From the NCBI RefSeq assembly GCF_019649055.1, contig NW_026570316.1:1-64000 (forward strand): a stretch of DNA of 64,000 nucleotides. Reading direction: 5' to 3'. Below are positions 1-42,655 of the stretch, piece after piece. The notes under the pieces were generated by a model. The model made no database searches, was not told the origin of the DNA, and worked only from the letters and a program-made list of their open reading frames with translations. This DNA is from Paramacrobiotus metropolitanus (taxonomy: Eukaryota; Tardigrada; Eutardigrada; Parachela; Macrobiotidae). A program made the translations under genes and the position numbers. Position 1 is the stretch's first letter. Every line of letters begins with the position of its first letter.

Positions 1-1300
1 TGCAAGTAATGCACATTTTTCTAAAACCTTCTTTTTTTTTGCGTTTTATAATGTCACAGTACCATCAGATACGTATTACGGTTGACCGCTGTAATTTTGT
101 GTTCCTCCGGTGAGCGAATTCAAAATAACTGTCGTAGAACAGCGTAGTATAGTGTTTTGCACCGTTGAACTGCAGCAAGGAAATGAAACGCGGTGGGTTC
201 AAGTCCCTTACAGCTAATTTGCAATTTTCATAACCTTACTTTTTTCGTCTATATTTTGTTATCGTCGTGGGAAAAGTATTGACAATAGCTTCTAGAATAT
301 CGGAATTAAACTCAGAGAGCTGTGTAAAATTGTATATACACTCAATGGTTAACATGCAACTTGGCCAGCTCTTCGTCTGTATTCTGTGACTTGTAGTTCA
401 GTGGTTTTGAATGATGGCCATTCTGCTCTCATGTTCACCTCCCAAACGGCTACTTAATCTCAGGTTGCATGCTGCATGTTGAAAACTACATTTTTCCTGC
501 CCTATATTTGTACCTTTTGTGGGAAGAAGTGTCAAGGTTTAATCCTCGTGCAGTCTGGATTAAATATACACGATTAAATATACACGACATGGCGCTTCCG
601 GTGTTAATTTAATTCTTTAGCGTAGAGCACCTTGTGGCGTAGTGGCTTGACTGAGAATCCATACCGACCCTGCTTCTTGTAAGTCTAGAGTTCGAATCCC
701 AAAAGTTAATCCTTTAATTTAAAACCTTCTTTTCGGTTTTATATTTTAAATTTATATGCAGTATTATGTTGGCTTGAGATTGGTAATTTTATGGTCATCC
801 TGACGAGTTAATTTTAAATTTAACTTCAGATTGTAGGCGTAGTGCACTGAACTGTTGAACCACAACAACAGGTGCAATGAAGGTTGCGGGTCTGAAACCC
901 CTTGAAATTAAAACTGCATTTTCTAACATCCTACTTTGTCTTTATATTTTTACTGTCACTCTTGTGGAAATATTTCCATTGTCGGCATGAAATCTATGAT
1001 CACGATGGTGGTGAAATCTTAAATTTATCAGCTGCTGCAGCGGTGAATTTTCACTATATTGTGAATTTTCGTAGTACAGCTCCAGTGATTGCCAAATTAA
1101 AAGTAAAATGTGGTATAGCCATGCTAGCGTATGGGCAAGAGCAGGATTTAGTTGTCCACCTAGATGCAAGGGTTCAATCCTGCGTGAATACACATTTTGC
1201 AAGTTTTAAAAGTTCTTTTCTATTCTTTTACTTTTCCATGGTGGTTTCTGTAACTTTATTCCCAAGGTGGAATGATAAAATTGTTTTTAGCATTTGATTC
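1..1300 (+). repeat. tRNA-like tandem array, copy A (units 2 tail to 7)
   Basis: This is the left-hand homologue of the array at 22.7-24.3 kb. A-box-like 11-mers lie at 145, 394, 635, about 834 and 1111. B-box-like matches lie at 196 (GGTTCAAGTCC), 689 (AGTTCGAATCC) and 1171 (GGTTCAATCC). The B box of unit 6 near 889 is damaged by a small indel relative to the right copy, and unit 4 has only a degenerate B box in both copies. Each unit is followed by a T-rich tail ending in runs of T. Spacing is about 200-280 nt. Confidence 0.7.
582..613 (+). other. LTR-end/PBS-like echo inside the tRNA-like array (copy A)
   Basis: The sequence TACACGACATGGCGCTTCC followed by GGTGTTAATTT closely resembles the real LTR end and PBS at 7614-7640 (TACACGACATGGCGCCCACC then GGTG). 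The same echo sits in the right copy near 23620-23650. It falls between units 4 and 5. It may be a relic of another LTR junction absorbed into the array, or the array may have grown next to an ancestral LTR edge. Confidence 0.5.
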
Positions 1301-1635
1301 ACGGTTCCAGGTGTGATAATTGATTTTAGCCGTTAATTTCACTCTGTACTGGAATTCACTGTTGTTATGATTGCGTATTCTGTTACACTGACTTTATTTG
1401 TATATTCAAATGCTGCATAAAAAATCTAAATTAAACTCGAATTAAGATCTGTCCGACCAAGATTAACGACTATATGAGAATTTGTATGGAATTATGATGA
1501 TTGCCTGCTAAAAAACACTGATGAGATTAATTCAACGAGATCAAAACGTTAAACGGAAGAAACAAAATCGGCCGAATTTCAGAACAAAATTATCAGACAG
1601 CCGTCGAAAATTATCAGATATCCTTAAACTGCTGT

Positions 1636-2981: not shown

Positions 2982-3555
2982 GATGATCGGATGATTAGAA
3001 CTGATTAAAATAAATTCGGCGAAGAGAAACAAGCTAGTAATAAAATGAAACAGAAAACCCGTCACCGTAAAAGGATAGATATTGTTGGGTTCTCGCTTTA
3101 TGGATGAACAGCTGATATTTTCTGTGCTTGCGATGCGGCATTTGTCACTTGCCAGCCGCCCTGATATGATATAATGCTATCAGAAACTGCACAGTTTCTG
3201 GTCTGTGTTCTGAATATTTCCAGCCGCGTGTTTTGGTTTTGACTTTCCCTCTTCGAGTTCTTTTTATCATTATGATTCGTTTTTGTGTTAAAATTTGTTT
3301 TGTGGTTGCAATTTGCAATCTCAACGAAACAAGTGGTATTCTGTGAGCTATGTGCGATGGGAAAAGTGGGAATAAAATCGCACCAGTCTGTCGCCTGTCA
3401 ACCGCCTCGTATACTCGGTGAATTTTGAGTTCTCGGCGTCGTGCCAGTGTAGATTGTCTGTTGTGCTTTGCACTTCAGTTTTCAATTTTCTGAACCTGCT
3501 TCTTTGTTCTTTTCCTTTTGTTTTACGCTTGAGGTGTCACTTTTACGTTTTGAGG

Positions 3556-5078
3556 ATGTCGCCTCCCGCGAAGAAAGCGACTGCGAGGAAGACCGTGTCT
3601 CGTACAATGCGCCCGAGTCGTGCTACAGCGGGTTTGAGCTTTGGTTACTCTCCGGACAGCGATGAAGCTCGTTCTTCATCGCGTGTCACTCGATCTCGAG
3701 TTTCCCGCCGTACTGCCGCTCAACCAGTATTTGCTGCGCAATCTTCTGGGTCGTCGGGATCGGTGAGTGCAGCAGAGGCTCAGCAACCTTCAACGAGTGG
3801 GGCAGATGATAGTTCATGCTTTGCAGCGCCGATATGATGCACAGCGGCGACGCACATCTTACGACGCAATGTTGCTGTGGTTCGCCGTCAGGCCTGCCGA
3901 GGATTATTTGCTGCCAGTCCTGACGTTGAGATTCGTCAGCCGTCACCAAAGAAATTGCAGACGCAGGCTGAAAGACAACTGGGTACTCCAGACCTGACTG
4001 AAGAAGAGCCATCGTCTTCCGAGACTCCGTCTCTTAAAGCAAAGCGAGGTACCGTCGTAATATCTTGCTGTTTGGTTCCTCTGCTTGATAATAACGATAG
4101 TTCTCAGTTTCCGTTATTTCTAGTCGTTTTTCGATTTAAAACCCAGCATATTGTTGCGAATCTGATTGGCGCTTCATGTGGAATTAACGAATATTTAGTC
4201 TGTTCTCGTTGCATATCCGTCGTACGGTTTTGCGAGGATACCTTTTGCCTCTGCTGGTATTAATTATTGCTCTTGCTATATCAGATGAAGAGATCTGCGT
4301 AAAGGCGGAATTTTATACGCGCCCTATAACCCGGATGCCCCGCGGCGGTCTTCAAGATCAAACAGACGGCGCGCAAACGAGCGCATTCCGGAGTATTTCA
4401 AGAATGGTCGTCGCGGATAAACGTGGTGAGCTCGTCGTTACTGAAGCCTATTTTACCGGATTAAACAGATTTCACCGCTATTATCCGCGTTTATATTTAT
4501 CACGCTTTTTGTTCATCAACGGAGTTTTAATTAATCGATTTGATTTGTGTATCATTACGGTCACGCCATCTTATTGCAATTTGAATTGCGTGCCAGTACA
4601 TATCTCAATCCGGTCTGTGTCCGTTTGTTTGAAGAATTGAGAAACGACAGAAAAGGATGCAGTTGTGCGTCAAGGTGTGGAGTTGCCAATGATGATGAAC
4701 CGCAGCCTCCACTTCTGCTGGACCGTATAATTTTCGCACTCGGGGAAAAGCGCAAGTACAAGGAGGTTTCACCGTCCTCGTCTTCGGCGCCAAGCGAAGT
4801 ATCTGTCTCGGATGATGGGGAAGATCGTGAGGATCCCGGCTGTGTTATCCCGGAAACAGAATGCTGATGTCGAAGCTGACGAGTATGTTGATATGGGAAG
4901 TTGATTGTGAGAACGACGATGGATCCGATCTGGACAAAATGGATGTTGATCCGCTGCCTTTATGCAGCCGGTTGTTCCAGCGGTGCCACCTGTTGCTGCA
5001 GTCGCTCGCGAGGATTCACCTGAAATTGCGGAACCGACGGTTTATGCTCAGCAACAGCCGCACTCGGATGAACTGTAA
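3556..5078 (+). pseudogene. Sense accessory gene E, copy A (broken)
   Basis: This is the homologue of the intact two-exon gene at 26696-28254. The start (ATG at 3556), the exon 1 end at 4048 (donor GAG|GTACCG) and the exon 2 acceptor before 4285 are conserved. A deletion of two bases near 3807, a one-base loss near 3855 and several further indels in exon 2 disrupt the frame. The acidic C-terminal region and the terminal stop at 5076-5078 are recognisable. Confidence 0.75.
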
Positions 5079-6771: not shown

Positions 6772-7621
6772 TGTACATAAAACACCATCCAAACTCAAGC
6801 GGCACCATGTCAGTAATTCATAGTTTGCCTTCCTGGATCCTTGGACCTCCGCCCTGCCAAACCTGTGGACTTCCGGATGCCTCTTCGCCAAGGATTCCAC
6901 ACTAACTCTCTGGAATCGCGGCGTACAGTCACATTGGGCATCGGATGGACGCGTGGATTGTGCGGTGGATCGGGATCAGGATGGATGGAAGTGCACAACG
7001 CACTGGGATGTTGCGGGATGGATTGTTTATTTTGGCACGGCCAAGCATCGTTCGTGGGGTGACGTATGGGAGTAGGATCATACGCCGGATGTACGTACGG
7101 ATGCTGACTGTCCGCCTTCCACCTGCAACACAACGGATAATCTAGTCAATCTCTGCTGTGATTTGCTGTTCTCTTTACTAGCGATGTATATGATGTCATA
7201 ACGCAAAGTCTATATAAGTTCTTGTGATGCCTAATATCGGTATCAGTAGTCTGAGATTTACTTTGAGACTGCTTCTAATTACAATTTCCTAGCGTTGTAA
7301 ACTGTGATGTATTGATAAAGAGACAGCAATACTTGTTCCTACTGAAGTATAGTTGTTCCGGATTATCGCTTAGTATACAGGTTTTGCTGTGACACAATCG
7401 TCCTAGCTCATGCCGATCCTCACAGGACTTACGACCGGAAGTTGTGGTTAGCTCGTTCCTGAGGGATTCCTGATCTTCGGTGTTCCTGATTCGTTCGTCT
7501 TATTTCCACCATAGTTCTTCTGTTACAGTTTGAGAGTACGAGTGCCTACCGATTGAGCATTACAGGCGTGGAAGAGTAAAGATTGTTCATGGGCCTACGG
7601 CGTGAACGCTTATACACGACA
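6772..7621 (+). other. Terminal LTR-like segment, copy A
   Basis: The segment opens with TGTACATAAAAC and closes with TACACGACA, so it has TG...CA ends. It contains a TATATAAG box at 7211-7218 with no ORF of substance downstream, as expected for U3-R-U5. The PBS follows directly. The left boundary is uncertain, because homology with the right copy does not stop here but runs back to position 1. It is therefore either the whole LTR or only the 3' end of a giant one. Confidence 0.6.
7211..7218 (+). promoter_or_regulatory. LTR promoter TATA box, copy A
   Basis: TATATAAG is conserved at 30388-30395 in the right copy. It would place transcription initiation near 7240, upstream of the PBS and gag. 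Confidence 0.55.
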
Positions 7622-7636
7622 TGGCGCCCACCGGTG
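7622..7636 (+). other. Primer binding site-like sequence
   Basis: TGGCGCCCACCGGTG begins directly after the LTR end. A TGG start, complementary to the tRNA CCA end, is the hallmark of an LTR-element PBS. I cannot name the primer tRNA from sequence alone. Confidence 0.6.
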
Positions 7637-8477
7637 TCTTTTAATTTTCCGATGTAACAGAAAATTATTGGTGGAAAGTTTGATAGTAATTTTCGGTAAT
7701 AAATACGTTTGAAAGGCGTCGAACCGCAAAGGTAGGAGGTCAGCGTTCCCGATCTGGCCTAGTTAAATTATTTTCAGCGAGCTTCCTCGCAGTTGTGAGC
7801 TTCACTGGTGAGCTTCCTCGCCAATTAAATTAATTTAATTTAATTTAAATTGACCGTAGGAACAACAGTCGAAACCTCAAAGGTCGGCTGTGCATGGTGT
7901 CTGTGTGGTAATTTCCGGGTTGTCTGCGCGCAGTAACCGCGGCGAATAGTGTAGTCTGCAGTGTCAGTGCCCTGGCCTGCAGATAGAGCAGATAGTAAGC
8001 ACCGAGCCATTGTCAGTGGCCAGGTGAGATAACGATCTCCAATGACTGATAGCGCCGCAAGCGGTAGCCAAAACAGCTAGAGTTGACCGTGAAAAGGTAA
8101 ACACCGGCAAACGGTGATTGACCTGTGAATCTTAAAATTACAGCACGCAAAGTGCAGCAGTGTAATTTTAGAATTTATTCAGTCGAAACCGCAAAGGTTG
8201 GCTGCGTCTAAACTCACTGAACAATTCAAACCTAAAAGGAGGATTGGGAAGTGAGGAGACAGTAATGCACAATAATTTCGGAAACCAGTAGCACAATCGC
8301 TGCTGTACTTTATTTTAATTAGCCGCAAAGGTTATTTAAAATAAAAAGCAAAATGTCGGGCGGTCGATTCTGAAATCGCCCACCACCGCGTAAGATCCCA
8401 GATAACAAAGTGATTGGGGCGCGTAGATGGATCGAGAGGCTCAGACAATTCAAATTTAAAGAAATCCGTTGAATTTA
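7637..8477 (+). other. Retroelement 5' leader with repeated GTCGAAACC-type motifs
   Basis: This is a non-coding leader of about 840 nt between PBS and gag. A motif of the form GTCGAAACCGCAAAGGTTGG recurs at about 7718, 7868 and 8182, with a shorter version at 8321. A GAGCTTCCTCGC motif occurs twice at 7778-7820, and an AT-rich run of AATTTAATT units lies at 7823-7850. Repeated motifs in such leaders can serve RNA folding or packaging, but that is inference. Confidence 0.5.
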
Positions 8478-10660
8478 ATGTACATCGCTCTTAATGTCGA
8501 ACCACCAGAAGCACAAGATGCATTCTGTGGGAAGTCATGGATTGATTACCAGGAAATCAGGCGGTACTTTAAACAAAACGAGATACCAGCACATTTTAAA
8601 CCTTGGATTGAGTACGAGGATGTATCCCTGAAGCTTACCTGGACATTACTGATGAGCAGTTTAAAGCTGCCTTTGCAGGATGCAAACAGGTGGCTGCCAG
8701 AATATACGGAAGATTTGAATAGACGCAGAGAGGCGGCCCAAGCTGCGCTTACAGCGTCAAAAGCAACGGAAAACTCCCAAAAAAACAGGCAGCAAATGAG
8801 CGCGTCACGCGGTGAGAGAATTCCAGCCCAGGCATCTGGTGCGATATTGATGAACCCATATCGGAAACCGTGGCTGAGAGCCAAACAGAACCTCAGTCGT
8901 CCCAGTCGGACAATAATAGCGTTGGCGGCTGCGGATAAAGCAGACATATCCGAGGGATCAGAAACAAGAGCAAGCAAAAGCATTCGTGGTGGAACAATGA
9001 CATTCCACCCGGCACAGCTAAAATTACATAGTTTTGTGTCGAAAAAGATTTTGAGCAACCAGATGAGGACTTTACCCAAGCTAGGGAAGTTGATGAGCAG
9101 TTAGCTGCGGCAGAAACTGACCAGGACGTGGGCTTGATAGTTCGGCAAACTATGCCCGTATTGATCCAAAGTCTCCGCACGCCATCGCATCACAAAAACA
9201 AAGTAGATGAAATGGGTAATACAATGTCTTTAGACGCTCGTGTAGATGCGGAACGAAACGAAAAATTGAAATTCCAAAACGATTTCAATGAGATGCGTTA
9301 AATTTGAAAATGAACAAATAGAAAATGATAGATTGGCTAACGAAATACGCATTGCGAATGATAATCTGCACGGTTTAAGACAAGCCAACAGAAATGCGGA
9401 GGCCGCATTTAATGCAATGCAAGATGAGCGCGATACTTTAAAAGACACGAATCGTAATTTTGAAAACAGTTGGAAGATGCCAGAGAGATCTTTCAACGCG
9501 AAAGCTACGATTGATGGCCTCAGTGCGCAACCAGCACCGGATTTAACGAAACAAATAACTGATTTGAACCAAAAGCTGTCGAAAGCTCAGAAAGATTGTA
9601 ATTCTGAGAAAGATGCGCATAAATTAACTAATAAAAATTTGACGGATGCGCAGAACCTGGTCACAAACTTACCAAAGATTTGGAAGATGAAAGAAACGGC
9701 TAAAGATGCGGAAGATTCTACAGCGTGAACTCACACAAGCGAGAGTGCAGCTGAACATTAAGTCTTCAGTCGGTCCGATGCATATTCCCAAGGAAAAGGA
9801 TGATGCGTCCCAAAAGGAAATTGAGAGACTGCAGGGTCTGTTGACTACAGAGCGAGAGAATGTTCAAAAGGCCCAAAAGGAATTAAAAGATTCGAAAAAG
9901 GATAAAAGATGTGATAATTGTGAGAACGCGATTCAAGAAAAAATACAGCACAGGCGACGCATATGAAAGTCTGAAAGGTGTAATCGACTGTAGAGAAATG
10001 CGCAATGCCGAAGGGAATGGCATGAAAAACAAGATCAACTTACCAAGATGGAAGTGGATCTAAAGCAAGCGTTTGACGAACTTCGTCGGCTTCGAAATAC
10101 AGATGCCTTGGCGGCGGTGAAGGATACTTTCAAAGGGAAGCGCCGGTAGCGACAGGAGATGTATTACGTCCTTCCCTTTACACCATTTAATCCCAAAATT
10201 TCGCCATACGTGGATCAGCCCAGCTACTGGTAGTAATCCAGCTGGCATCCAGGCCTAGACAGGAATCACGAGTCGAATTCTCGGAGGCTCAGCCATGCCG
10301 CGTTCATCGTCAGAAAGTCAAATTCCAAGGGAAACGGCATCTGCCGAACAGAGAAAATGGCTCAACAGATTTACGCCAACAAATTCTGAAAAGAACAGCT
10401 GACGAATCTAGTCGCCAGATGCGAGGAACAGAAAATAGAGACAGTTCTGATACAGAAAATGAACTGATGGATGATGCCCTAATGGACGATGAACACCGTC
10501 GCCCCAGTAGCACGACCAGTAATGAGTCTATGTCAGAAATCCTCAGCTGGAGGAATGGCTAAATAAACAGACCCAAATTTCGGATAGAACGACGCTACAC
10601 AAGAAAGCGTTGTTGAGCTTTTAGCGAAAATTGTGGAAAAGACAGTGATAAAACAGTAGG
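8478..10660 (+). pseudogene. gag: gag N-terminal region with coiled coil (frameshifted)
   Basis: The first open stretch runs from ATG 8478 to 9104. Further open stretches in other frames lie at 9288-9728 and 9706-9966. The 9288-9966 part is rich in Glu, Lys, Asn and Gln with regular heptad-like spacing, so a long coiled coil is likely. The sequence around 10290-10560 is polar and continues in shifted frames. The stretch as a whole looks like one decayed gag reading frame broken by small indels. Family assignment rests on its place between the leader and the capsid-like and protease segments. Confidence 0.55.
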
Positions 10661-14692: not shown

Positions 14693-15890
14693 ATGAGTAT
14701 GGTAATTGCCGAGTCTGCGTTGTTAACGTCTGACAAACCGCTGGTTTTGAATGAAGAAACCAACCTTGGCGAAGTCGCGCTTGTGGACGCAGTGTACCAA
14801 ATGGACTCTCCGGAGTTCCAGGAGAATTGTCAAGAGGCAATTAGTGGCATTCCCAGTGTGGAAGAAGGTGTCTTGACACCGGAGAAAATAAATGAATGTG
14901 TGGTTATGCAGTTGCCGCCACCCGCCGTTAGTGTCGTTGATCCTGAAACCGAAGAAACGTTCGCTAAAATCAAAGTTGGTGATATCTGTCCCAGCAAGGA
15001 TGAATTAAAAGCAATCTTTTATCAAGCGAAATCAGTTTTACCGACTAAGGCGCGTCCTGTGGGTTGTTGTACCATATATGAGCACTCTGTGGATACAGGC
15101 ACGAGTTTGCCGGTCAGAACTCCTCCGTATCGCACATCGTTTGAAGACCGCAAATGGCTCCAGGCCAAAACACAGGAAATGATTAAAGACGGTATAATTG
15201 AGCCAACAAATTCGGCATGGGGCAGTCCCATCTGCATAGTGAAGAAGAAGGATAAATCCGGCGTTTAACCGTGGATTTCCGTAAGCTTAACGAAAGATTA
15301 ATGGGCAGCAGTTACCCGCTTCCCAGAGTTGACGATATATTAAATGCCCTCGATAAAGCTACGGTTTTCAGTAAAATCGATTTAAAGAGTGGCTTTTGGC
15401 AAATAAAATAAAACCGGAAGACCGGTGTAAAACAACAATGGTTGGCGAAGAGTTCACGTTCCAATACAAAGTCTTACCTTTTGGGATGAAGGACGCGCCT
15501 TCGGCTTTCCAGCGCGCCATGGATTTGACGCTTGCGAACATGAAGTGGAGGAACGTATTAGTTTTTATTGATGACATTATTGTCTTCAGTAAAACCTGGC
15601 TGATCATATGCGAGATTTACAGGAGCTCTTTTGCGGCTCCAGGAATGCGGCTGGACCATTAATCCTGAAAAGACAGAATTATTTGTAAATTCAATAACGT
15701 TCCTGGGTCACACGGTTGACCAGTTCGGTATCAGTACTGATCCAGAGAAGATCCAGGCGGTTAAGGAATTTGGCCCTATAAAAGACAAAAAAGATATAAT
15801 ACGGTTCCTAGGTATGGTGGATATTATCGCCAATTTATTAAGAATTTTCAAGAGATTGCGAGCCGCTTCAAAAGTTGATTCCTAAAAAGT
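14693..15890 (+). pseudogene. pol: Reverse transcriptase (Ty3/gypsy type), frameshifted
   Basis: The frame 14693-15268 leads into the RT with PPYRTSFEDRKW, then IKDGIIEPTNSAWGSPICIV, the usual fingers motif. After a frame change come the DFRKLNE motif (about 15270-15300), SKIDLKSGFW near 15370, VLPFGMKDAPSAFQR near 15475, and VFIDDIIVFS with the catalytic Asp pair near 15567. The thumb region with FLGHTVDQFG lies at about 15700. Breaks near 15266, 15408, 15595 and 15660 make it non-functional as written. Confidence 0.8.
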
Positions 15891-16451
15891 TACCTTTGAA
15901 TGGGGAACGGATCAGTGTAGGTCTGTGGAACAATTGAAGGAGGCCTTGGTGACGGCGCCGGTCTTGGCCCGTTATGACCCGGAGGCTTTGTCGCGAGTTA
16001 TTGTCGATGCCAGTACTATTGCTGTGGGTGCAGTCCTTATGCAATGTCCCAAGGATAAACCGACGGATGTGCCGACAAATTGGCGTCCTATCGCGTATCT
16101 AAGCCGCAAGTTGACTGAAACGCAGAAAAGGCTCTACTTCCCTACCGAGCTTGAGGCTTACGCAGTTATCTGTGCTTTAAAGAAATGGAAACATTATTTG
16201 TCCGATTATCAGTTCGAAGTACAAACGGATCATCAAGCATTAGTGTTTTAAATAATATGCGCGATGCCGCTGGCCGCCTTGGGCGCTGGGCGTTGTATAT
16301 CCAGCAATTTAATACTAAACCGTTCACATACCTGGCAAAGAGAACGTTATTGCTGACGCCTTGAGCAGAAATCCAGGAGAGCAACCGGAACCTGACTCCT
16401 GACGACTCGGATACGAGTCTGATTATCGGCAACCACCCTTTCGCCGGTGAT
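15891..16451 (+). pseudogene. pol: RNase H domain of pol
   Basis: The frame 15925-16251 carries VIVDASTIAVGAVL, then RPIAYLSRKLTETQKRL, PTELEAYAV and QTDHQAL. These supply the Asp, Glu and Asp expected in an RNase H active site. A stop at 16249 and a frame change precede the last helix (GRLGRWALYIQQF) near 16275. Confidence 0.75.
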
Positions 16452-17815
16452 ATGGCGATGATTGAATGTTGCTTCGCGGTTCTGGAGCGAGATTATGTGG
16501 ACATCCGCTTTGAAATGATGTCGGCGGAAGTGAAGGCAGTGTCCGAGGCAGACATGAAGGCATTTGACGCAGATAAAGTCCAAAAGTTGATTACGGATGA
16601 CAAGGCCTCATACTGGGCTGAGGAACAGTCCCGAGACGCGAGAATTGTCCGATGGCGACTGCTCCTAGAGAATAAAAAGGAAAAGATGTCAGACCACGAG
16701 AAATTACATCTAAACAAATTTGTGGTGAAACAGGGCGTGGTATACTACAAGTTCGAATTAAACCGGAAGATCTATTACTGCATGTATGTACCTGTTCACT
16801 GGCGGCTCCAGTTCCTTCAGGATAACCATGATTCCCCGTTAGCAGCACACTTGGGCGTCCTGGCCACCTATAAAAGGATGTACAAGTATTTTTATTGGCC
16901 TCGTATGTTTGAGTCTGTTAAAAGTTATTGCGCTTGCCCGGCGTGCCTTGCACAAAATCCTCTTGCTACGGCACCGGCCGGTGCTCTCCAGTCCAATCCT
17001 GACCGTTCCTCCTCGGTTAGTTTGGGCAATCGACGTTGCTCCGGCTCTCCCAACGACGGAATCTGGAAACAAAAACATAATAATCGCTGTTGATTACGGA
17101 AGCAAATACATTGTGGCTGAGGCAGTTGAGAGAAATGATGCCGCCACATTGGCGTTGTTCTTTTATCGCCGCATTCTCGACAGTCTTTGGCATGCCTGTA
17201 CACATCACTCAGACCGCGGCAGTAATTTTATGTCTGAGATGTTTCGAGAGCTTCGCTCTCGCTGGTGTTGCTCACGCACCGACGGCATCAGGCCACCAGC
17301 AGGGTAACGGTCTGTTGAAAAACGCGTAGGGGAAATCAAAAAGGCGCTAGCGAAGTATGTGAACGAGCAGCAAAGTGACTGGGATATATTCCTCCCAGCA
17401 CTTTGTGCTGCCTTTAACAGTAAGGTTGTGGAGCGAACGGGCCGCTCACCATTCTTCATGATGCACGGCACCGAGATGCGCTTACCGATAAATAACTTCC
17501 TGCCATTTGAAGAGGATTTCGTGATTCCTGCCCATGTATATGTACAGCAGATGCAGCGCGGCCTTGGTGAGGCCTTGGACTTGGTGAATGCAGAAGAGTT
17601 TCGCCATAAACTTAAGGACAAAATTCGTTACGATGCAAATATTTCACACGTATCGTATAAACCGGGAGATCAAGTTTTGGTATACGTACTTCATCGAAAA
17701 GTGGGGAAAAATCCATCCCTTATGCCCCGTTGGACTGCTGGATGGGAAATTGTGCGTCAGTCAGGGCCAGTGCATTATGTAGTAAAAGTAACCGGCGCGG
17801 AATGTCAAAACTGAC
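16452..17815 (+). pseudogene. pol: Integrase: zinc-binding domain, core and C-terminal part
   Basis: The frame 16452-17093 contains the conventional zinc-binding domain (NHDSPLAAHLG, then YWPRM, CACPAC) at about 16780-16950. The core begins with WAIDVA near 17030, HSDRGSNF near 17205, and a QGNG segment near 17300 where the catalytic Glu is displaced by a frame change. 17359-17814 holds the end of the core (FNSKVVERTGRSPF) and the C-terminal part with PRWTAGWEIV, similar to the GPY/F module. At least two frame changes are present. Confidence 0.75.
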
Positions 17816-20219: not shown

Positions 20220-20553
20220 TCGGTTCAAATCGGACTTCTCCGGTTGTTTAAAATCAGAATGTGGCAGATAATCTGACGGAAAACGATTTAACATACAAAA
20301 TGACAGTTTAAAATGCAAGTCTTCACGTTTGAACATGTAAACAATTTTGTCACTGTAGCAACCGCCCGTGTGTCGTTAAATGTTAGGGCAGTGGCAGTCA
20401 CATAGTGCGCAGCTGCTTCCGGTCTGCACAGCTGCGGTGTGTCAGCGGTTTTCCTGTTCACTCTTGCCTTTTACATTTTTAGCTGCAGCTTTTAAATTTT
20501 ACAGGCTTTGTCGTCATTTTTTTTTCTGGTTTAAATCTCTGCTCTTCCATACT

Positions 20554-21342
20554 ATGGAGATGGAATTTTATAAATCAGAGCGCGGGCGTATGATTTGTGC
20601 CGAGCAAGATGAGCAAAAGCGCCGTAAGTTTGTGAAATTTTCTGACTCTGTTGCTTATGTTCTGGCGAACCAGGAACACATTTTTGAGTTTGTGCACTTG
20701 TGGCGTTCGCTTGATGCTCTGTACATTCCTATCAGAGAACTGTGCAGACTCTCTAACTCGGAAATCATGGCTTTGAATTTTGTAGAACCCGAGCCACTGG
20801 ATTTCGAGGCTCAGGTGGCTCTGGAGATTGAGAACATCCGCAAGTCGGAGTCACAGATGTATTACTTAACGATCGGGTTTATTCTGTATCCCGATACTCC
20901 AGTTCGACGTGAAGCATCTGAACGTCTGCGGAAGGAATGTGGTTTGCCATCCCTATTTAACCCGCCAGAAACTTCGCGTGAGCGTCACCAGCGCATGCTA
21001 GAACACAACAAGCGTGTGATGGAGGAGGAACTCTGTTGTGTTGACTGCGAAAATAATGGTCCGGGTTCCTGCGGCCGTATGTTGTACACCTTGGACGATG
21101 AGCCTGTTCCAAATATCTGGGGATCTGGCAATCTGGAGGACTGGAAAGAGCCAGACTTAGATGTGGATGACTGGTGGGCACAGCACAAGCTGGATTTTAA
21201 GGATCCGATTGAATTTTGGCCCGTGGATATGCTGTGGGTGGACGAAGACTTCGGCATCATCCAGAAACCGAAGAAGGAACGCAAGCGCATTTTTGGGCAG
21301 CGTCATCCTCTGCGTGGAATTCGATTCCCTTTTTGGAAGTGA
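20554..21342 (+). CDS. Accessory ORF B, 262 residues, unknown function
   Basis: The frame is intact. I choose ATG 20554, which has A at -3 and G at +4. The same frame is open from an upstream ATG at 20380, which would add 58 residues with a hydrophobic stretch, but that leader is pyrimidine-rich and resembles the 5' leaders of the other accessory ORFs. The protein is acidic and rich in Glu and Trp, with a Cys cluster CCVDCENNGPGSC near residues 165-177 and a basic C-terminal tail. No catalytic motif was recognised. Confidence 0.65.
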   Translation: MEMEFYKSERGRMICAEQDEQKRRKFVKFSDSVAYVLANQEHIFEFVHLWRSLDALYIPIRELCRLSNSEIMALNFVEPEPLDFEAQVALEIENIRKSESQMYYLTIGFILYPDTPVRREASERLRKECGLPSLFNPPETSRERHQRMLEHNKRVMEEELCCVDCENNGPGSCGRMLYTLDDEPVPNIWGSGNLEDWKEPDLDVDDWWAQHKLDFKDPIEFWPVDMLWVDEDFGIIQKPKKERKRIFGQRHPLRGIRFPFWK

Positions 21343-22171: not shown

Positions 22172-22714
22172 TGTGGCATTGTCCGGCGGACTTTTCGATG
22201 TGGATTTCGCCACTATTGTTAGAATGTTTGGTATTTTGTACGGAATGCCTGAAACATCGCTTCACGTCTATGATCTCCTTGCCTTCATTCTTTTATGTGC
22301 ACGCTCATGCGTTTTATGAGATCTCATAATGCAGATTTGGCGCAGCGTTTTATCTTGTATTTTTATTGTTTTGCGGTTAGTTTACTTCGTTATTCAAGGT
22401 TGCGTTTCGCCATATGAGTTGTACACTGTTTAGCTGGTACATTATGGTTTTTGCGCTTCGTTCCGCAAGGCACTTTTGTTGTTTAGTTACTATGCGAGTT
22501 GCGAGTTTAATAAAGCAAGAGTAGTTACCGTCCCTGCTGTCTGTTGGTAACTTTTGGACAATGTAATGCATAACCGCACGAGGATACACTTTCGTTAGGA
22601 TGCTGTACTGGTTTTCATGTAGCTGGTCGCTTCGGTGGGTAGGCCACAGGCATTTTCACTTTGGTTTGTTGTTGGTGTATGCCTTTGGCGCTCCCGCTAA
22701 ATAGGATCTTGTGT
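22172..22714 (+). other. Non-coding stretch before the tRNA-like array
   Basis: No convincing ORF. AATAAA lies at 22509-22514. No polypurine tract is evident just left of the repeated block, which would be expected if the block were a giant 3' LTR beginning here. Confidence 0.4.
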
Positions 22715-22818
22715 AGAGCGACCCCGCTAGTATAGTAGAGGCTTCCGTTGCTTCGTCATTGGAGGTCGGAGGTTCCAGTCCACATAAAAAACGCGATTTT
22801 GTAAATATCCTCATTTTT
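22715..22818 (+). ncRNA. tRNA-like unit 1
   Basis: The A box TAGTATAGTAG (22728) and the B box GGTTCCAGTCC (22771) both fit the Pol III internal promoter consensus. A T5 run lies at 22814. Part of this unit would lie left of the window in copy A. Confidence 0.5.
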
Positions 22819-22950
22819 GGTTTTTATTTCATGAATCGTTATATTCTTATTCGTGGGATTTAATATGAGGAATATTGGCTGAATCACCGTTGAGAGGCGT
22901 CAATACGAGTACTGACACTGTAAGCAGTGTTATTAACACTATTTCTGCCG

Positions 22951-23074
22951 ATGACTCTTGTAGTCGACCGGTTAAGCTGTGAGGACAATACCAGGCGAAT
23001 CCGTTTACCTACTGCTGGCCCTGGGTTCAAATCCACTAAAAAATTTAAAAGCATCTTTGTAAACCTTCTTTTTT
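22951..23074 (+). ncRNA. tRNA-like unit 2
   Basis: A box TAGTCGACCGG (22961), perfect B box GGTTCAAATCC (23024), T6 at 23069. Confidence 0.55.
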
Positions 23075-23170
23075 GGGTTTTATATTATTTTAATAACATC
23101 AAATACGCATTGCCGTTGACCGTTCTAATTTTACGATCATTTCCGATGAGCGAATTCAAAAATAACTGTC

Positions 23171-23286
23171 GTAGAACAGCGTAGTATAGTGCTTTGCACC
23201 GTTGAACTGCAGCAAGGGGGAAATGAAACGGTTGCGGGTTCAAGTCCCTTACAGCTAATTTGCAATTTTGAGAAACTTACTTTTTT
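23171..23286 (+). ncRNA. tRNA-like unit 3
   Basis: A-box-like TAGTATAGTGC (23182, last base off consensus), perfect B box GGTTCAAGTCC (23237), T6 at 23281. Confidence 0.55.
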
Positions 23287-23429
23287 CGTTCTATATTTTT
23301 GTTTTCGTCTTGGGAAAAGTATTGTCAACAGTCCCCAGAATGTCAGAATTAAACTCAAAGAGCTGGGCGTAAAATTGTATACACACTCAATGGTTAACAG
23401 TGCACTTGGCCGTATGCTTGTTTGTATTC

Positions 23430-23544
23430 GAATGACTTTGTAGTTCAGTGGCTATGAATGATGGCCATTCGCCTCATGTTCTACCTCCTAAACGGCTAGT
23501 CTTAATCTCAGGGTTGCATGCTGCATGTTGAAAACTACATTTTT
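23430..23544 (+). ncRNA. tRNA-like unit 4 (B box degenerate)
   Basis: Perfect A box TAGTTCAGTGG (23441). The B-box position reads GGGTTGCATGC, which departs from consensus. T5 at 23540. It is probably inactive or uses another structure. Confidence 0.4.
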
Positions 23545-23667
23545 CCTGCCCTATATTTTTGTACCATTGTGGGATGAAGAGGTAATCATTTGGTGCCTTA
23601 TTGCAATAGGGTTAAATATACACGACATGGCGCTTCCGGTGTTGAATCTAACTCGGTTTTAACGTGG

Positions 23668-23779
23668 AGCACCTCGTGGCGTAGTGGCTAGACTGAGAAT
23701 CCATACCGACCCGCTTCTCGCAAGTCTAGAGTTCGAATCCCTAAAAGTTAATCCCTTTAATTTAAAAACCTTCTTTTTT
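23668..23779 (+). ncRNA. tRNA-like unit 5
   Basis: A box TGGCGTAGTGG (23677); B box AGTTCGAATCC (23730) with one mismatch. The T arm TAGAG-TTCGAAT-CCCTA can form four of five pairs with a canonical loop. T6 at 23774. This is the most tRNA-like of the set. Confidence 0.6.
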
Positions 23780-23879
23780 CGGTTTTATATTTTTAAATTT
23801 ATATGCAGTATTATGTTGGCTTCGAGATTGGTAATTTTACGGTCACTCCCGACGAGCGAATTTTAAGTTTAACTTCGTA

Positions 23880-23993
23880 GATTGTAGTGGCGTAGTGCAC
23901 TGAACTGTTGAACCACAACAACAGGTGCAATGAAGGTTGCGGGTTCGAAACCCCTTGAAATTAAAATTGCATTTTCTAACATCCTACTTTTTT
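23880..23993 (+). ncRNA. tRNA-like unit 6
   Basis: A box TGGCGTAGTGC (23888), perfect B box GGTTCGAAACC (23942), T6 at 23988. In copy A the B box is broken by a small indel. Confidence 0.55.
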
Positions 23994-24159
23994 GTTTCTA
24001 TATTTTTACTGTCACTCTTGTGGAAATATTTCCGTTGTCGGCGCGAATTCTGCGTTCATGATGGTGGTGAAATCTTAAAAATTATCAGCTGCTGCAGCGG
24101 TGAATTTTCACTATATCGCGGATTTTCGTAGTACAGCGCCTCCAGTGATTGCCAAATTA

Positions 24160-24290
24160 AAAGTAAAATGTGGTATAGCCATGCTAGCGTATGGGCAAGA
24201 GCAGGATTTAGTTGTCCACCTAGATGCAAGGTTCAATCCTGTGTGAATACAAATTTTGCGAGTGTTAAGAGTTTCTCTCCATTCTTTTTT
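24160..24290 (+). ncRNA. tRNA-like unit 7
   Basis: A-box-like TGGTATAGCCA (24171), B-box-like GGTTCAATCCT (24230), T6 at 24285. It is the last unit before the convergent antisense gene. Confidence 0.45.
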
Positions 24291-24463
24291 CCTTTCTGTG
24301 TTGATTCCTGATTCCTTGTTACTTTGTTCCCAAGATGGAATATTACAATTGTTTTTAGCATCTGGTTCGCGGTTCCTGGTGTGATAATTGATTTTAAGCT
24401 GTTAATTTTTCACTCTGCACTGGAATTCACTGTTGTTACGGTTGCGCCTTCTGTTACACCGAT

Positions 24464-24713: not shown

Positions 24714-26084
24714 TTAGTCCAGATCTAGATTCTCCTTTGCAGTTTTCAAGTTCGCAAGACGTTGTTCTAGAGCCTCACGGATATACGCGATATGCTTCGC
24801 ATCCATCGTCGCTCGAGCCTTCAGCGTGTTTACCAGCGCCTTGCAGTTATCCATAATATCCTTTTCGCGTTCGACTTGTTCTAATAATTTGTCGATTGCG
24901 TCGGGCTTTTTCATAGCATCCGGCTTTGCAGTGCTTACTTCATTGTCAGGCTTTTCGGCCTTCTCCTTGGTCTTCTGGCCTTTCTTCTCGGTATCCGTAC
25001 TTTTCGACCGGGGAACATATTTAGGACGGCCGCCCATAGCTTTCAGCTGTGTGAGCGTGATAATTGGTTCTCGCTCAATGCGTCCGTCTTTGCTAGCCCG
25101 GATTACCAGATTTACGTTGGTGGTGTTGTTCTTCTCGGGCTCGATTGCGTCCAGCCGCTCCATGACGCCATCGACAACCAGATTCCCGTCTTGTCCCACG
25201 TAACCGAAGCTACAATCGGCGAAGTGTTGTGCTGTGTCTTTTCCGTTGACTGTCACCTTCATAGTGCCCATTTTGATATCTGCACAATAAATCATTCTAT
25301 TAAATTACGCAACGCAAATGATTTGCAGTATATAGCGCTGTTATGCTCTTTTAAAATGTAAACATTGAGAATGCCGTTTTGAAAAACACAAACACTTACT
25401 GATGGTCTGGGCCAGAGTGGTGCAGAGACAGCAGCCGCGAATGCTTCGTAGCCACAAGTCGATGCAACTATCCACGAAAAGATTCCCGTAGACGACGACG
25501 ACATGTTTTTGGTTGACCAGTTGGCGCAGCCCGCGCTCCAGCCAGTAGTCCACGTCCTGTAGATGCACGTCGAATGTACAGATCCAGTGTTGGATTTCGG
25601 TGCGTGACATGGCATATCGGCCGTGGTAGAGGATTACGCGAATCATCCGACGAAACTTGCTAGTTGTGTCGATTACCTTCGTCTCTTGATCGCGGTTATT
25701 TTTCACCTCCTCGGCCACCTCGAGCACGAAACGTCCATCGCGGCTCATCTTCTTGAGCAAGATACCAGCATTAATAGCGTCGCCAAGGAAGAAATCCACT
25801 CGTTCTTCCGTGAAGTCGTCATGCATTTCTACAACGAATTTCTTGATAGATGACATGTCCACATAATATCCCGTAATGTCAGCTTCAAGAATGCACGCGT
25901 GGGCTGCCGTATGCATCGCCAATTGTCGACGGTCTCGGATGGTTTCGTTTGGCTGTAGAGGCTCTGCCATGGCAAACTGAACTGATTCGCGAGTTCGTCC
26001 CTTCCAGTATTCATAGTGGGCAATCGCGTCTGCTCCCGGCGATGGTAGAGGCTCTCCAGTTGGTCCTACAGGCTGTCCTGACAT
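24714..26084 (-). CDS. Antisense accessory gene D, two exons, 416 residues
   Basis: Exon 1 runs 26084-25400 (ATG at 26084) and exon 2 runs 25279-24714. The 120-nt intron has a GTAAGTG donor and a TTATTGTGCAG acceptor, and the two frames join in phase, giving 1251 nt. The N-terminal two thirds look globular (residues such as GRTRESVQFAMAEPLQ and SRTEIQHWICTFDV). The C terminus is Lys/Glu-rich with predicted helices. There is no signal peptide. It runs opposite to gag-pol and converges on the tRNA-like array. I recognise no family. The intron implies spliced Pol II transcription from the minus strand, a situation known from antisense genes of deltaretroviruses. Homology to those is not claimed. 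Confidence 0.7.
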
Positions 26085-26695
26085 GATGGTCTAGCGAAAT
26101 AATCCAAATTAAATGAAACAAACAAAAGGAATAGGGTAGTAAATGACAAACAGAAAATTCCGTCACCACAAAAGGATAAATATTGTAGGGTTTTTCAGGT
26201 TATCAAAATGAAATGAACAGCTGATATTTTTAGTGCTACCGTACCGGCATGCTGTCACGTGTCAGCCGCCCTGATATGGCAATGCTACCGGAAACTGCGC
26301 AGTTTCCGGTCTGTGTTCCGAATATCTCCCAGCCGCGTGTTTTGATTTTGCTTTTCCTTTTCGTATCCTTCTAACCACCATGACTTGTATTTTCTGTTAG
26401 AATTTAGTTTTTGCGGATCAAATTTACAAGACCCCCAGCGAAACAAGCGGTATTCTCTGTGGCTTAGTGCAAACAATTAAAGTGGGGATAAAATTCGCAA
26501 AAACCGCTGGTCGCCTGTCAACCGCCTGGTGGTATACTCGGTGAATTTTGAGTTCTTGGCGTCGGTGCCAGTGTAGATTGTCTGTTGTGCTTTTCTCTGC
26601 ACTTCAGTCTCTCAATTTTCTGAACCTGCTGCCATTTCCGTTATTCTCCTTTTCCCTTCGTTTTACGATTGATTTGTCACTTTTATGTTTTGAAA
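26085..26695 (+). other. Bidirectional intergenic region between genes D and E
   Basis: About 610 nt separate the divergent starts of D (minus) and E (plus), so this stretch probably holds two promoters. A conserved block near 26505-26600 (GGCGTCGGTGCCAGTGTAG) precedes a pyrimidine-rich leader to gene E. No clear TATA box was seen. The equivalent in copy A is 2982-3555. Confidence 0.4.
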
Positions 26696-29943: not shown

Positions 29944-30810
29944 TGTACATAAAACACCATCCAAACTCAAGCGGCACCATGTCAGTAATTCATAGTTTGC
30001 CTTCCTGGATCCTTGGACCTCCGCCCTGCCAAACCCGTGGACTTCCGGATGCCTCTTCGCCAAGGATTCCACACACTAACTCTCTGGAATCGCGGCGTAC
30101 AGTCACATTGGGCATCGGATGGACGCGTGGATTGTGCGGTGGATCGGGATCAGGATGGATGGAAGTGCACAATCGCACTGGGATGTTGCGGGATGGATTG
30201 TTTATTTTGGCACGGCCAAGCATCGTTCGTGGGGGTGACGTATGGGAGTAGGATCATACGCCGGATGTACGTACGGATGCTGACTGTCCGCCTTCCACCT
30301 GCAACACAACGGATAATCTAGTCAATCTCTGCTGTGATTTGCTGTTCTCTTTTACTAGCGAAGTATATGATGTCATAACGCAAAGTCTATATAAGTTCTT
30401 GTGATGCCTAATATCGGTATCAGTAGTCTGAGATTTACTTCTGAGACTGCTTCCTAATTACAATTTCCTAGCGTAGTAAACTGTGATGTGTATTGGATAA
30501 AGAGACAGCAATACTTGTTCCTACTGAAGTGCATAGTTGTTCCCGGATTATCGCTTAGTATACAGGTTTGCTCGTGACACAATCGTCCTAGCTCATGCCG
30601 ATCCTCACAGGACTTACGACCGGAAGTTGTGGTTAGCTCGTTCCTGAGGGATTCCTGATCTTCGGTGTTCCTGATTCGTTCGTCTTATTTCCACCATAGT
30701 TCTTCTGTTACAGTTTGAGAGTACGAGTGCCTACCGATTGAGCATTACAGGCGTGGAAGAGTAAAGATTGTTCATGGAGCCTTAACCGGCGTGAACGCTT
30801 ATACACGACA
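29944..30810 (+). other. Terminal LTR-like segment, copy B
   Basis: It starts TGTACATAAAAC and ends TACACGACA, with TATATAAG at 30388. It matches 6772-7621 with a few indels. No PBS follows; the next bases are CTTGTTTTAAA, marking the right end of the element. Confidence 0.6.
30388..30395 (+). promoter_or_regulatory. LTR promoter TATA box, copy B
   Basis: TATATAAG is identical to the left copy. If active here it would drive transcription into flanking host DNA. Confidence 0.5.
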
Positions 30811-35240: not shown

Positions 35241-35937
35241 CTACCAATAAGTACAGTACTAATAAAAAGCGTGTAAAATCGTCAGAATCAAACCTTAAAA
35301 ACAAATAAGACGTACTTAGGCAATCGAGATAGACCCCAAACTAGCAGCACATTTATTAACAGGTTCTTCGACATAGAGCAGCACACTACTGAAGAAAATA
35401 CTAATTTACTAAACACTAGGCACGCTGTAGTTGCATTATTTCTTCAAGAGATTACATTGATTACCACAGCCACTGCCTCGTTTTTCGCAACATTTGTATT
35501 TTCGGTGGGTGGCCGATCCAATAGAGGCACAATCATGATCGCTCTTACAACCATCTTGCTTCTTTGTGCACTTCTTGGAAAGGGTGAGTCCGCTTGTATC
35601 GAGATCCTACAGTTTGTGCGTTGCTTACGGTAAGTTTTAGAGATGCACAAAACAACTCCGACACAATACAAAAAATAATTACAGTTGTGCGTAGAACTAT
35701 ACATGTATACCTTTACTAGATGGTTTTTTTCTATTAGCTTGCGATTTTTCTAGTACGAGTAGTTCCACATAATTCTTATTTCTGTTGATTTCGTATAACA
35801 AAAGCTCGAGAGCCTGACAGTGACACCTACCGAGCCACATTCCCCGCCTTCGCTCTTTCCTAAAACACACGCAAACCTATAGAAAAACTATGACGTATCT
35901 ATATCTTGTTAGAGCATTATAACGGAATTTATATTAA
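35241..35937. other. No supported gene
   Basis: Intergenic sequence. I see no coding, RNA or clear repeat signal. Confidence 0.4.
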
Positions 35938-36426
35938 TGTTACCGCTTCCGGACTCCACTTGGGGCACTGGAGCCCCGGCTGCTAGGAGGCTGGTGCTCT
36001 CGGTGATCGGCTGTGTGCGGTGACCGTGGGTCAGCGAAAAGCCGGCCGACCGGGGTCGGCGGAAGAGAGCGACCAGTGCCCTGCGCAACCGAAGGCCCCT
36101 TTATTGAGCAAGTGCGAAATAACAGCAGAAGAAGAACAGTAGGGTGTGGCGGGTGGTAAAAGAACAGAGATCACTCGCGCGCACACGATCTCGAAGGAGC
36201 AGAGACAGACAGCAATGTAGAAATGCAGAACGGTGCAAACACCCGAACAGTGCCAAGCGCAAACAGCATGCCCGTGCATGATGGCGGCCGCTTTGATCTA
36301 AGCGCCACGGCGACGCGCAGAGCCACCAACACTCACGTAACTTGCTACACATGAGGAAAGGAGAAAGAGCGGGAGCGCATGTCCTCCAGCTAACACTAAC
36401 ATCAATTAACTTGTTAATTGTCATTT
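35938..36426 (-). mobile_element. Solo-LTR-like repeat, copy 1
   Basis: This ~489 bp sequence is shared with 42178-42655 in the same orientation. Read on the minus strand it carries AATAAAGGGGCC near its middle, and its ends form TGTTA...TAACA inverted termini at the core, flanked by a shared palindromic AATTAAC-TTGTTAATTG edge. No coding region. Target-site duplications could not be settled. Confidence 0.6.
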
Positions 36427-36963
36427 AAAATCAATCAATATTAAAAGTGCAAAACCAAAACATGAAGTGAGCAAAACCAAAACATGATCATTGTGAAGAT
36501 TCCCGTAGTCGCTACTATATATGTGCACTAGAGGAAGTCTGATATAAATAATTAATGACCGTTAGCAGATAATATTTACCGGCGAAAACAATAAGGGAGA
36601 TCAGGGAAACGCACATGACGAAAGCGATAGTGGACTTCATCTTTGGAGCAAAATTATGCACTTCTGCTACTGGCTTAGCAGTTATCAGCTACTGTAACGT
36701 AAAAACAAGCAATGTAGCGCGAAAAGCAAAATGCATCGACAAGTGTTCACTGCTAAAATGACTTTAACTTTTCACAACAAATAGAAGATTCCGTGGCACA
36801 ACAATAACGGCTCGCGGCCATTCTGCGGACTGCACACTTGTATGTCCGGGAGACAAAGCATATTAACCGTATCATAACAAAAGTTAAAACAAACCATTGC
36901 ACAGCATGTTTTCTACCAATCAGCAGGGCGCAATCCGAGGGAAACCGAGAAACGGCTGAAAAA
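36427..36963. other. No supported gene
   Basis: Intergenic sequence with a short near-repeat (GCAAAACCAAAACATGA twice at about 36447-36487). Confidence 0.4.
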
Positions 36964-37742: not shown

Positions 37743-38620
37743 CAGGAAGTCACCTTAGTCCTCTGTAGTCTTGGTAGTGCATGTAGTCTCGGTAGCCTAC
37801 TGTAGTCTCGGTTGTCTGCGTAGTCCCGGTAGCCCACGTAGTCTCGATAGTTCCCGTAGTCTCAGTAGTCTGGGTAGTCCTGGTAGCCCACATAGTCTCG
37901 GTAGTCCATGTAGTCTCGGTAGTCCACGTAGTCTCGGTAGTCCACCTAGTCTCGTATAGTCCATGTAGTCTGGATAGTTTACTGTAGTCTCTGTAGTCCA
38001 TGTAGTCTCGGTAGTCCATGTAGTCTCGGTAGTCCACGTAGCCTCGGTAGTCCATGTAATCTCGTAGTCCACATAGCCTCGGTAGTCAATGTAGTCTAGT
38101 GTAGTCCATGTAGTCTGGATAGTTTACTGTAGTCTCTGTAGTCCATGTAGTCTCGGTAGTCCATGTAGTCTCGGTAGTCCACGTAGCCTCGGTAGTCCAT
38201 GTAGTCTCGGTAGTCCATGTAGTCTCGGTAGTCCACGTAGCCTCGGTAGTCCATGTAATCTCGTAGTCCACATAGCCTCGGTAGTCAATGTAGTCTAGTG
38301 TAGTCCATGTAGTCTGGATAGTTTACTGTAGTCTCTGTAGTCCATGTAGTCTCGGTAGTCCACGTAGCCTCGGTAGTCCATGTAGTCTCGGTAGTCCATG
38401 TAGTCTCGTAGTCCACGTAGCCTCGGTAGTCCACGTAGTCTAGTGTAGTCCATGTAGTCTCGGTAGTCCACGTAGTCTCGCTTAGTCCATGTAATCTTGG
38501 TAGTCCACGTAGTCTGGGTAGTTTACTGTAGCCTCTGTAGTCCACGCAGTCTCGGTAGTCCACGTAGGCTCGGTAGTCTCCGTAGTCTTGCTAGTCCAGA
38601 CAGTCTTGTTAGTTTCGCAG
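37743..38620 (-). repeat. Minisatellite 1 (9-mer based, minus orientation)
   Basis: Tandem GTAGTCCAT and GTAGTCTCG nine-mers, reading GACTAC on the minus strand. A higher-order pattern is visible: the phrase GGATAGTTTACTGTAGTCTC recurs near 37975, 38120 and 38315, with a variant near 38515, so blocks of roughly 150-200 bp were duplicated. Confidence 0.9.
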
Positions 38621-41775: not shown

Positions 41776-42177
41776 GTACAGCCATGCATTAGTCCTGCCT
41801 GCAAGCGTGCCGCTGAATAGATATACCGGTAGATGTACTTTAGAGCGACTTAGACAACATGAGCATATGTATTACTGTATAGGGAAACACTTTTATGAAC
41901 TAAGTGGAAATGCCCGAGTAGGCTGCTTCGCGTTTGTCTTTATATATTTTTTGACTTGAATGTATATCTACGCTACATTCCTTTCACTTGTTAGAAAAAA
42001 AAGTAATGCTGATATTTTGCAACAACTGGTCACTTTTGATTTTCAATAGTTGGTCATTGAACTGTTAATGACAATGACTTATCACCAGTGTTACGCGTTC
42101 TTTTTCTCGGTTCCAGACTTAGGCAGTTGTAAAATTTACTCATAGTAAGGTTAAGAGTCACAGGAGCGTGCGAGCTA
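41776..42177. other. No supported gene
   Basis: Intergenic DNA between the LINE tail and the second LTR-like repeat. Confidence 0.4.
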
Positions 42178-42655
42178 ATGTTACCGCTTCCGGAATCCAC
42201 TGGGAGCGCTGGAGTCCCGGCTGCTGGGCGGCTGGTACTCTCGTGATCGGCTGTGTTGGTGACCGTGGGTCAGCGGGAAGCCGGCCGACCGGGGTCGGCG
42301 GAAGAGAGCGACCAGTCCCCTGCGCAACCGAAGGCCCCTTTATTGAGCAACGCGAAATAACAGCAGCACAAACAGCAGGTGTGGCGGGTGGTAAAGAACA
42401 ACATCAGTCGCGCGCACCCGAACAAGAAATGCAAAGAACATCGGCCACAGATGCAGTACCCAACGCGGGCACAAAAACAGTGCCGAGAGCAAAAAGCAGG
42501 CGCGTGAGTACCGTCGGCTACTTTGATCTAAGCGGCCAAAGCGACTCGCAGCGCCACCAACACAGGTAGCTGCCTACACACGGCGAAAAGGGGAAAAGCG
42601 GGAGCACACATCCTCCAGCTAACATTAACATCAATTAACGTTGTTAATTGTCATT
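42178..42655 (-). mobile_element. Solo-LTR-like repeat, copy 2
   Basis: Same sequence and orientation as 35938-36426, about 6.2 kb away, with several indels. It also carries the minus-strand AATAAA. The plus-strand open frame across it is incidental. Confidence 0.6.

Follow-up and report, generated by a model that had tools for sequence, protein, structure and literature searches.

A conserved tandem array of putative RNA polymerase III genes within a giant Ty3/gypsy-type retrotransposon of the tardigrade Paramacrobiotus metropolitanus

The RNA polymerase III (Pol III) gene cluster of bovine leukemia virus (BLV) lies in sense orientation, and the TMERs of murine gammaherpesvirus 68 are tandemly clustered. 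An arrangement to be compared with these is described here for a stretch of 64,000 nucleotides (hereafter the window), which forms one end of contig C96 in the 169.8-Mb genome of the tardigrade Paramacrobiotus metropolitanus, and which carries a 23.8-kb retrotransposon of the Ty3/gypsy type with long terminal repeats (LTRs). BLV has five hairpin genes clustered in the provirus, with type-2 A and B boxes, poly-T terminators and antisense transcripts nearby (PMC4992882, PMC7252678), and thus provides a precedent, not named in the original prediction for this stretch, for what that prediction considered new, a retroelement that carries a Pol III RNA cluster of its own. The TMERs are Pol III type-2 RNAs that combine a tRNA-like 5' part with miRNA hairpins (PMC8223928), and foamy virus, a retrovirus, has Pol III-directed small RNAs that are dumbbell-shaped miRNA precursors (PMC7693620), the Pol III miRNAs of one simian foamy virus being located in the LTR (PMC7104284). 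Helenus, Ajax and Cassandra (TRIMp3) are LTR elements with a Pol III promoter of the tRNA or 5S type, again within the LTRs (PMC10886601).

The array in the window is taken here, with a probability of about 0.8, to be a cluster of eight (in this copy seven) Pol III genes inside a giant Ty3/gypsy LTR retrotransposon, comprising tandem duplicates that have been kept by selection. The seven units of the window copy are all on the + strand, between 22728 and 24290, at spacings of 211-283 nt; their predicted positions, with A boxes, in most cases B boxes, and T5-T6 runs, were confirmed. The start of the RNA was assumed to lie 12 nt upstream of the A box in every unit, which gives the following features:

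22716..22818, + strand: unit 1 (ancestral U1), A box at 22728, B box at 22771, T5 at 22814-22818
22949..23074, + strand: unit 2 (U2 body joined to U3 terminator), A box at 22961, B box at 23024, T6 at 23069-23074
23170..23286, + strand: unit 3 (ancestral U4), A box at 23182, B box at 23237, T6 at 23281-23286
23429..23544, + strand: unit 4 (ancestral U5), A box at 23441, letters conserved at 23512 but without a consensus B box, T5 at 23540-23544
23665..23779, + strand: unit 5 (ancestral U6), A box at 23677, B box at 23730, T6 at 23774-23779
23876..23993, + strand: unit 6 (ancestral U7), A box at 23888, B box at 23942, T6 at 23988-23993
24159..24290, + strand: unit 7 (ancestral U8), A box at 24171, B box at 24230, T6 at 24285-24290; the least-changed body
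1..1360, + strand: the window's other copy of the array, truncated at the contig end (ancestral U4-U8)

The B boxes of units 2, 3 and 6, which had been called perfect, each match the consensus at 9/9 letters, those of units 1, 5 and 7 match at 8/9, and unit 4 has the degenerate GGTTGCATGCT at the B-box position (6/9 letters). Every unit of the window copy is followed by a run of T5-T6. When a unit was defined by an A box of at least 7/8 letters, a B box of at least 8/9 and T5 within 60 nt, the rule recovered six of the seven units of the window copy, 7/8 units in the eight-unit copy L017, and 3-8 units per copy over 36 copies, while three copies, each subjected to 1000 dinucleotide shuffles, returned means of 0.003-0.006 and a maximum of 1. 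Applied to the antisense strands of these 36 copies, the same rule gave no unit; in other parts of the window it gave one on the - strand of the region from 31 to 64 kb, none on the + strand there, and none on either strand between 8 and 20 kb. In L017 the A and B boxes are 43-70 nt apart and the T run begins 16-43 nt past the B box. Within 60 nt past the B-box position, T4 is present in 285/285 unit-copies and T5 in 278/285, against backgrounds of 58% and 34%, respectively, for all 60-nt windows of the block.

The ancestral organisation was examined in an alignment of 37 rows, 35 of them fetched copies and two from the window, with presence of a unit judged by an 85% length rule. All eight units are present in 28/37 aligned copies; individually, U1 is present in 35 rows, U2 in 33, U3 in 30 and each of U4-U8 in all 37. 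The seven units of the complete window copy result from a deletion that fused two units, leaving the U2 body with the U3 terminator, so that the ancestral third unit is missing. The array had been described as preserved in both copies within the window, and the second copy does have it, but only as the last five units, since row W1 of the alignment (positions 1-1360) is cut short by the contig end. Several units are recognisable paralogs of one another (in L017, for example, U4 and U7 share 71% identity over 169 nt), whereas U1 and U5 of L017 gave no match to other units at E≤0.01. When the last unit, the only one searched singly, was used as a query, 40/40 scored matches (from 43 candidates) adjoined a match of the same element to ORF4, the open reading frame (ORF) downstream of the array, and no dispersed solo copies were seen. 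The paralogy and the position of these matches bear out the view of the locus as a sense-strand, head-to-tail Pol III type-2 array in a retroelement rather than a set of independent short interspersed elements (SINEs).

The neighbouring reading frames, which also provide a yardstick for conservation, are as follows:

20380..21342, + strand: ORF3, 320 aa, without a Pfam match; upstream neighbour of the array
24714..25304, - strand: ORF4, 196 aa, antisense; downstream neighbour of the array and codon-position yardstick
25341..26090, - strand: ORF5, 249 aa, antisense

The order is ORF3 (+), the array, ORF4 and ORF5 (-), and then further + ORFs. An annotated protein of P. metropolitanus matches ORF5 with 96% identity over 92%, and a comparison of ORF5 with viral contigs found no relative. 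ORF4 and ORF5 (24714-26090, - strand) are both contained in a single 410-aa public protein model (P0121, LOC129598761), with no Pfam match.

Rates of change were calculated as parsimony changes per site on a tree of 36 copies, L039 being left out. The values were 0.54 for the A box, 0.83 between the boxes, 0.85 for the B box and 0.50 for the T run, compared with 1.90 for the tail and 2.74 for the spacer; conservation of the boxes across copies, a test named beforehand, was therefore borne out, their rates being far below that of the spacer. The A-to-B bodies as a whole changed at 0.78 per site, ranging from 0.25 in U8 to 1.21 in U2, and when the labels were shifted circularly, only 1 of 2045 shifts reached the observed body mean. 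The ratio of body to spacer was 0.34 (bootstrap 0.29-0.40). For 16 copies longer flanks were available. In these the body rate, 0.25, falls within the range of codon positions 1-2 of ORF4 and ORF5 (0.21-0.37), and the spacer rate, 1.04, is close to that of third positions (1.26-1.44). ORF3 is less constrained (14 copies; 0.68-0.71 at positions 1-2 and 1.73 at position 3), and for ORF2 only the query itself aligned. Conservation of the units as protein-coding sequence was considered and rejected, as no phase pattern is common to the bodies, although the phases of a single unit can be as much as about twofold apart.

Searches with ORF3 and ORF4 revealed further elements within the same genome, including 16 ORF4 places at ≤64% identity, 15 of them at 46-64% and one at 32%. 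The relative on contig C103, with amino acid identities of 59% in ORF3 and 62% in ORF4, yielded a piece of 901 nt that contains the end of one unit followed by two complete units, each with both boxes and a T run. The U7-like unit has TAGTCTAGTGC, GGTTCGAAACC and T9, and the last unit has TGGCGTAGTGG, followed 45 nt later by a B box of 8/9 letters. Used as a query in turn, the C103 piece matched the ORF3-ORF4 gaps of elements on C71, C94, C36 and C213 and at two loci on C1 (40 scored of 48 candidates), and also a place on C272 near an ORF4 match.

The class of RNA that these units might encode was addressed by covariance and folding analyses. Rfam at E≤5 returned no tRNA-family (RF00005) match in the window block or in eight other sources, the two weak matches in the window block being to a bacterial small RNA (on the antisense strand) and to 13 nt of a tmRNA T arm; ARAGORN reported no tRNAs for either the window or 32 loci. 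The units were accordingly rejected as tRNA genes, there being no cloverleaf by either the Rfam covariance model or ARAGORN. With G-U pairs counted, units 1-7 form 3, 2, 4, 2, 4, 4 and 4 of five T-stem pairs. The T arm proposed for unit 5 is real to the extent that this is the only unit with four Watson-Crick pairs, but units 3, 6 and 7 also reach four when G-U is allowed. Mean fold z-scores against shuffles ranged from -0.57 to +0.95 among the units (5-8 copies per unit), i.e. the units are no more stable than shuffles, and RNAalifold showed no long hairpin. The description of the units as tRNA-like is consequently supported for their promoter boxes and not beyond them.

Several observations weigh against a cluster of selected Pol III genes. 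The body to spacer ratio takes equal values on terminal branches (0.33) and internal ones (0.35), and for this reason the branch test cannot tell selection apart from a low rate of mutation. The position 2 to position 3 ratios on terminal and internal branches (0.13 and 0.20 for ORF4; 0.20 and 0.11 for ORF5) likewise show no consistent relaxation, and they are below the body to spacer ratios of the same 16 copies (0.30 and 0.32). GC content is 0.51 in the bodies and 0.38 in the spacers. Unit 4 lacks a consensus B box, yet its sequence is conserved; T4 alone is weak evidence of termination because the block is T-rich; the sequence available from distant relatives is that of one element, C103 (901 nt); and nothing supports a structured RNA, as folding energies are no better than those of shuffles. 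Selection is nonetheless judged the better reading, since the boxes are common to units, and to relatives, whose other letters differ, and the bodies appear to have been kept by selection rather than by a low mutation rate. From their sequence, the units are very probably Pol III genes on which selection acts, and neither tRNAs nor evident pre-miRNA hairpins, and we infer that Pol III transcribes them.

Each unit would, on this basis, use an internal type-2 promoter and a T-run terminator to yield its own sense RNA, about 100-130 nt long. The units would have arisen as tandem duplicates within the element, and selection on replicating lineages would keep them. More tentatively, the RNAs could act in trans as non-coding RNAs of the EBER or VA kind, binding protein or serving as decoys for RNA interference, and so help the element; this is suggested because no pre-miRNA hairpin or tRNA fold was seen, yet the whole A-to-B body is kept.

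The array is located some 15.6 kb inside an element of about 23.8 kb that has its own pol. The window copy spans 7060-30810, and the region 1-30810 holds two element copies head to tail, with one LTR common to both and the upstream copy cut by the contig end. Its principal landmarks are:

7060..7621, + strand: left LTR of the complete window copy, which also serves the preceding, contig-truncated copy
7622..7634, + strand: primer binding site (PBS), complementary over 13 nt to the 3' end of two host tRNA genes with CCA added
14693..17814, + strand: part of the Ty3/gypsy-type pol region, with interrupted ORFs in the window copy and an integrase zinc-binding domain at 16365-17093
30236..30810, + strand: right LTR

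The two LTRs of the window copy are 97% identical over 576 columns (2 mismatches, 15 gap positions). A copy on contig C52, 23.8 kb overall, is bounded by identical LTRs of 574 bp that have TG..CA ends, and shows a 4-bp target-site duplication, ATAG. Its polyprotein, searched in pieces, has the Ty3/gypsy domain order of protease, RVT_1 (E-value 3.7e-35), RT_RNaseH (1.6e-18), Integrase_H2C2 (1.4e-17) and rve (9.7e-11), the best protease match (4.9e-5) being below Pfam cut-offs. Assignment to Ty3/gypsy (Metaviridae) is based on these LTR traits, the domain order and the PBS. The tRNA genes that match the PBS over 13 nt, once CCA is added at the 3' end, are at C2:2944834 and C6:939726. A search with a PBS 12-mer gave 70 places, compared with 10 for a control. 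The units themselves were rejected as PBS primers, given that a host tRNA fits the PBS. The reverse transcriptase fragment of the window copy found no relatives when used as a query; a reverse transcriptase piece of the C52 copy found 583, with identities of 35-45% among the 120 listed. At least about 40 alignable copies of the element are present in the genome. In the polyprotein of copy L014, weak additional Integrase_H2C2-like matches flank the pol core at 3303-4202 (E 0.0007) and 7803-8663 (E 0.0015), both below cut-off. Elsewhere in the window there are long minisatellites of TAGTCTCGG-type units at 37756-38598 and 44390-46467, of which the second is inverted and has several open frames, and a direct repeat of about 500 bp at 35935-36427 and 42176-42657 (82% identity).

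The array also contains a site resembling the junction of LTR end and PBS:

23616..23641, + strand: internal site ATATACACGACATGGCGCTTCCGGTG, 26 nt, between ancestral U5 and U6; second copy at 578-603

Seventeen nucleotides of this site, TATACACGACATGGCGC, are identical to the LTR-end/PBS junction at 7611-7627, the chance expectation in the window, with up to 3 mismatches allowed, being 0.14 matches. The site is nearly invariant, with 0.19 changes per site compared with 2.6-2.7 in the 30 nt on either side, and in all five copies measured the TAGTGG in the A box that comes next is at a distance of 62 nt from the ACACGACATGG of the site. Genome-wide, it occurs at 51 places with ≤3 mismatches, 35 of which are exact, while the reversed pattern was found at none. 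Of these 51 places, nine are between ORF3 and ORF4 in elements whose ORF4 has ≤62% identity; at the same threshold the site was present at 9/16 distant ORF4 places and not at the other seven. In C103 it is exact, within a 403-column alignment at 61% identity. Predicted pairing with the 3' end of the primer tRNA amounts to -21.7 kcal/mol, compared with -31.2 kcal/mol for the true PBS, values that carry no shuffle control. Pairing between the units and the internal site was rejected, as none of the eight units paired clearly better than mononucleotide shuffles (best rank 26 of 200). The site may be an upstream part of a promoter, a second primer or strand-transfer site, or a decoy for tRNA fragments; in Ty3 itself the PBS is in two parts across ∼4.8 kb (PMC5371799), an observation offered only as a lead. 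It is conceivable, though rather unlikely, that the Pol III cluster and the internal junction jointly steer reverse transcription or the use of the primer tRNA on this 24-kb genome, for example as a second point of initiation or strand transfer, with the element replicating in the manner of a complex virus.

Other explanations of the array can be envisaged. The boxes could act as DNA, with TFIIIC sites forming an insulator or boundary between the convergent + ORFs and ORF4/ORF5 on the - strand, and with no functional RNA. The A and B boxes are indeed conserved, the array does lie between convergent ORFs, and single AATAAA hexamers flank it at 22509 (+) and 24464 (-), as if between the 3' ends of convergent genes, though these may be due to chance. 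However, the stretch between the boxes has changed as little as the B boxes have (0.83 and 0.85), and the T runs too are conserved, although TFIIIC binding needs neither, and such a boundary seems improbable. Little probability is likewise accorded to the units being cis-acting elements of the genomic RNA, involved in packaging, capture of the primer tRNA or reverse transcription, with boxes that represent tRNA mimicry. The internal site, able to pair with the primer tRNA if more weakly than the true PBS, would suit such a role, but the failure of the units to pair with that site better than shuffles and the lack of a structural signal argue against it, and cis-acting RNA would not require conserved T runs. 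A Pol III-driven pre-miRNA cluster of the BLV type would be alike in layout, with clustered A/B-box units and poly-T terminators inside a provirus (PMC7252678), and is very unlikely, because no unit folds better than shuffles, RNAalifold gives no long hairpin, and the stretch from B box to terminator is short and weakly conserved; it was rejected for want of hairpins. Finally, tandemly inserted or decayed tRNA-derived SINEs, or chance, would account for T-rich tails and tRNA-type boxes but can be dismissed as extremely improbable, given the shuffle controls, conservation at the level of codon positions 1-2 and the location of every scored last-unit match beside ORF4.

If the array is a cluster of Pol III genes kept by selection, then Pol III RNAs encoded by retroelements are more varied and more widespread than thought. 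The number of alignable copies, together with distant relatives, in one sequenced animal makes the question testable with ordinary RNA sequencing, and the nearly invariant LTR-end/PBS-like site provides a second lead, on the replication of very large retroelements. The open-access literature, in the portions available, describes no Ty3/gypsy element with an internal array of Pol III genes, subscription papers and preprints being outside that scope; the published retroelement Pol III RNA clusters found in it are retroviral (BLV and foamy viruses), and their RNAs are miRNA precursors. Burro and Ogre are giant gypsy-like LTR elements with extra ORFs (PMC6431247), which the present element resembles in size and in its additional ORFs, and a Pol III array is not mentioned for them in the available part of that source. 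Troyka, a Metaviridae-like lineage (PMC12440569), does not fit because of its 3-bp duplications and CG..CG ends. Whereas TRIMp3 elements are short and non-autonomous and have their Pol III promoter in the LTR, the array described here is internal to an element with its own pol, and it differs from the TMERs, which belong to a DNA virus, in that neither cloverleaf nor hairpins were found in it. By analogy of layout, the Pol III miRNA cluster of BLV is the nearest precedent in this work: as in that member of the Retroviridae, a cluster of type-2 Pol III units lies inside an LTR retroelement with antisense neighbours, but in place of pre-miRNA hairpins there are eight units that show no evident hairpins, in a Ty3/gypsy element with a tardigrade as its host.
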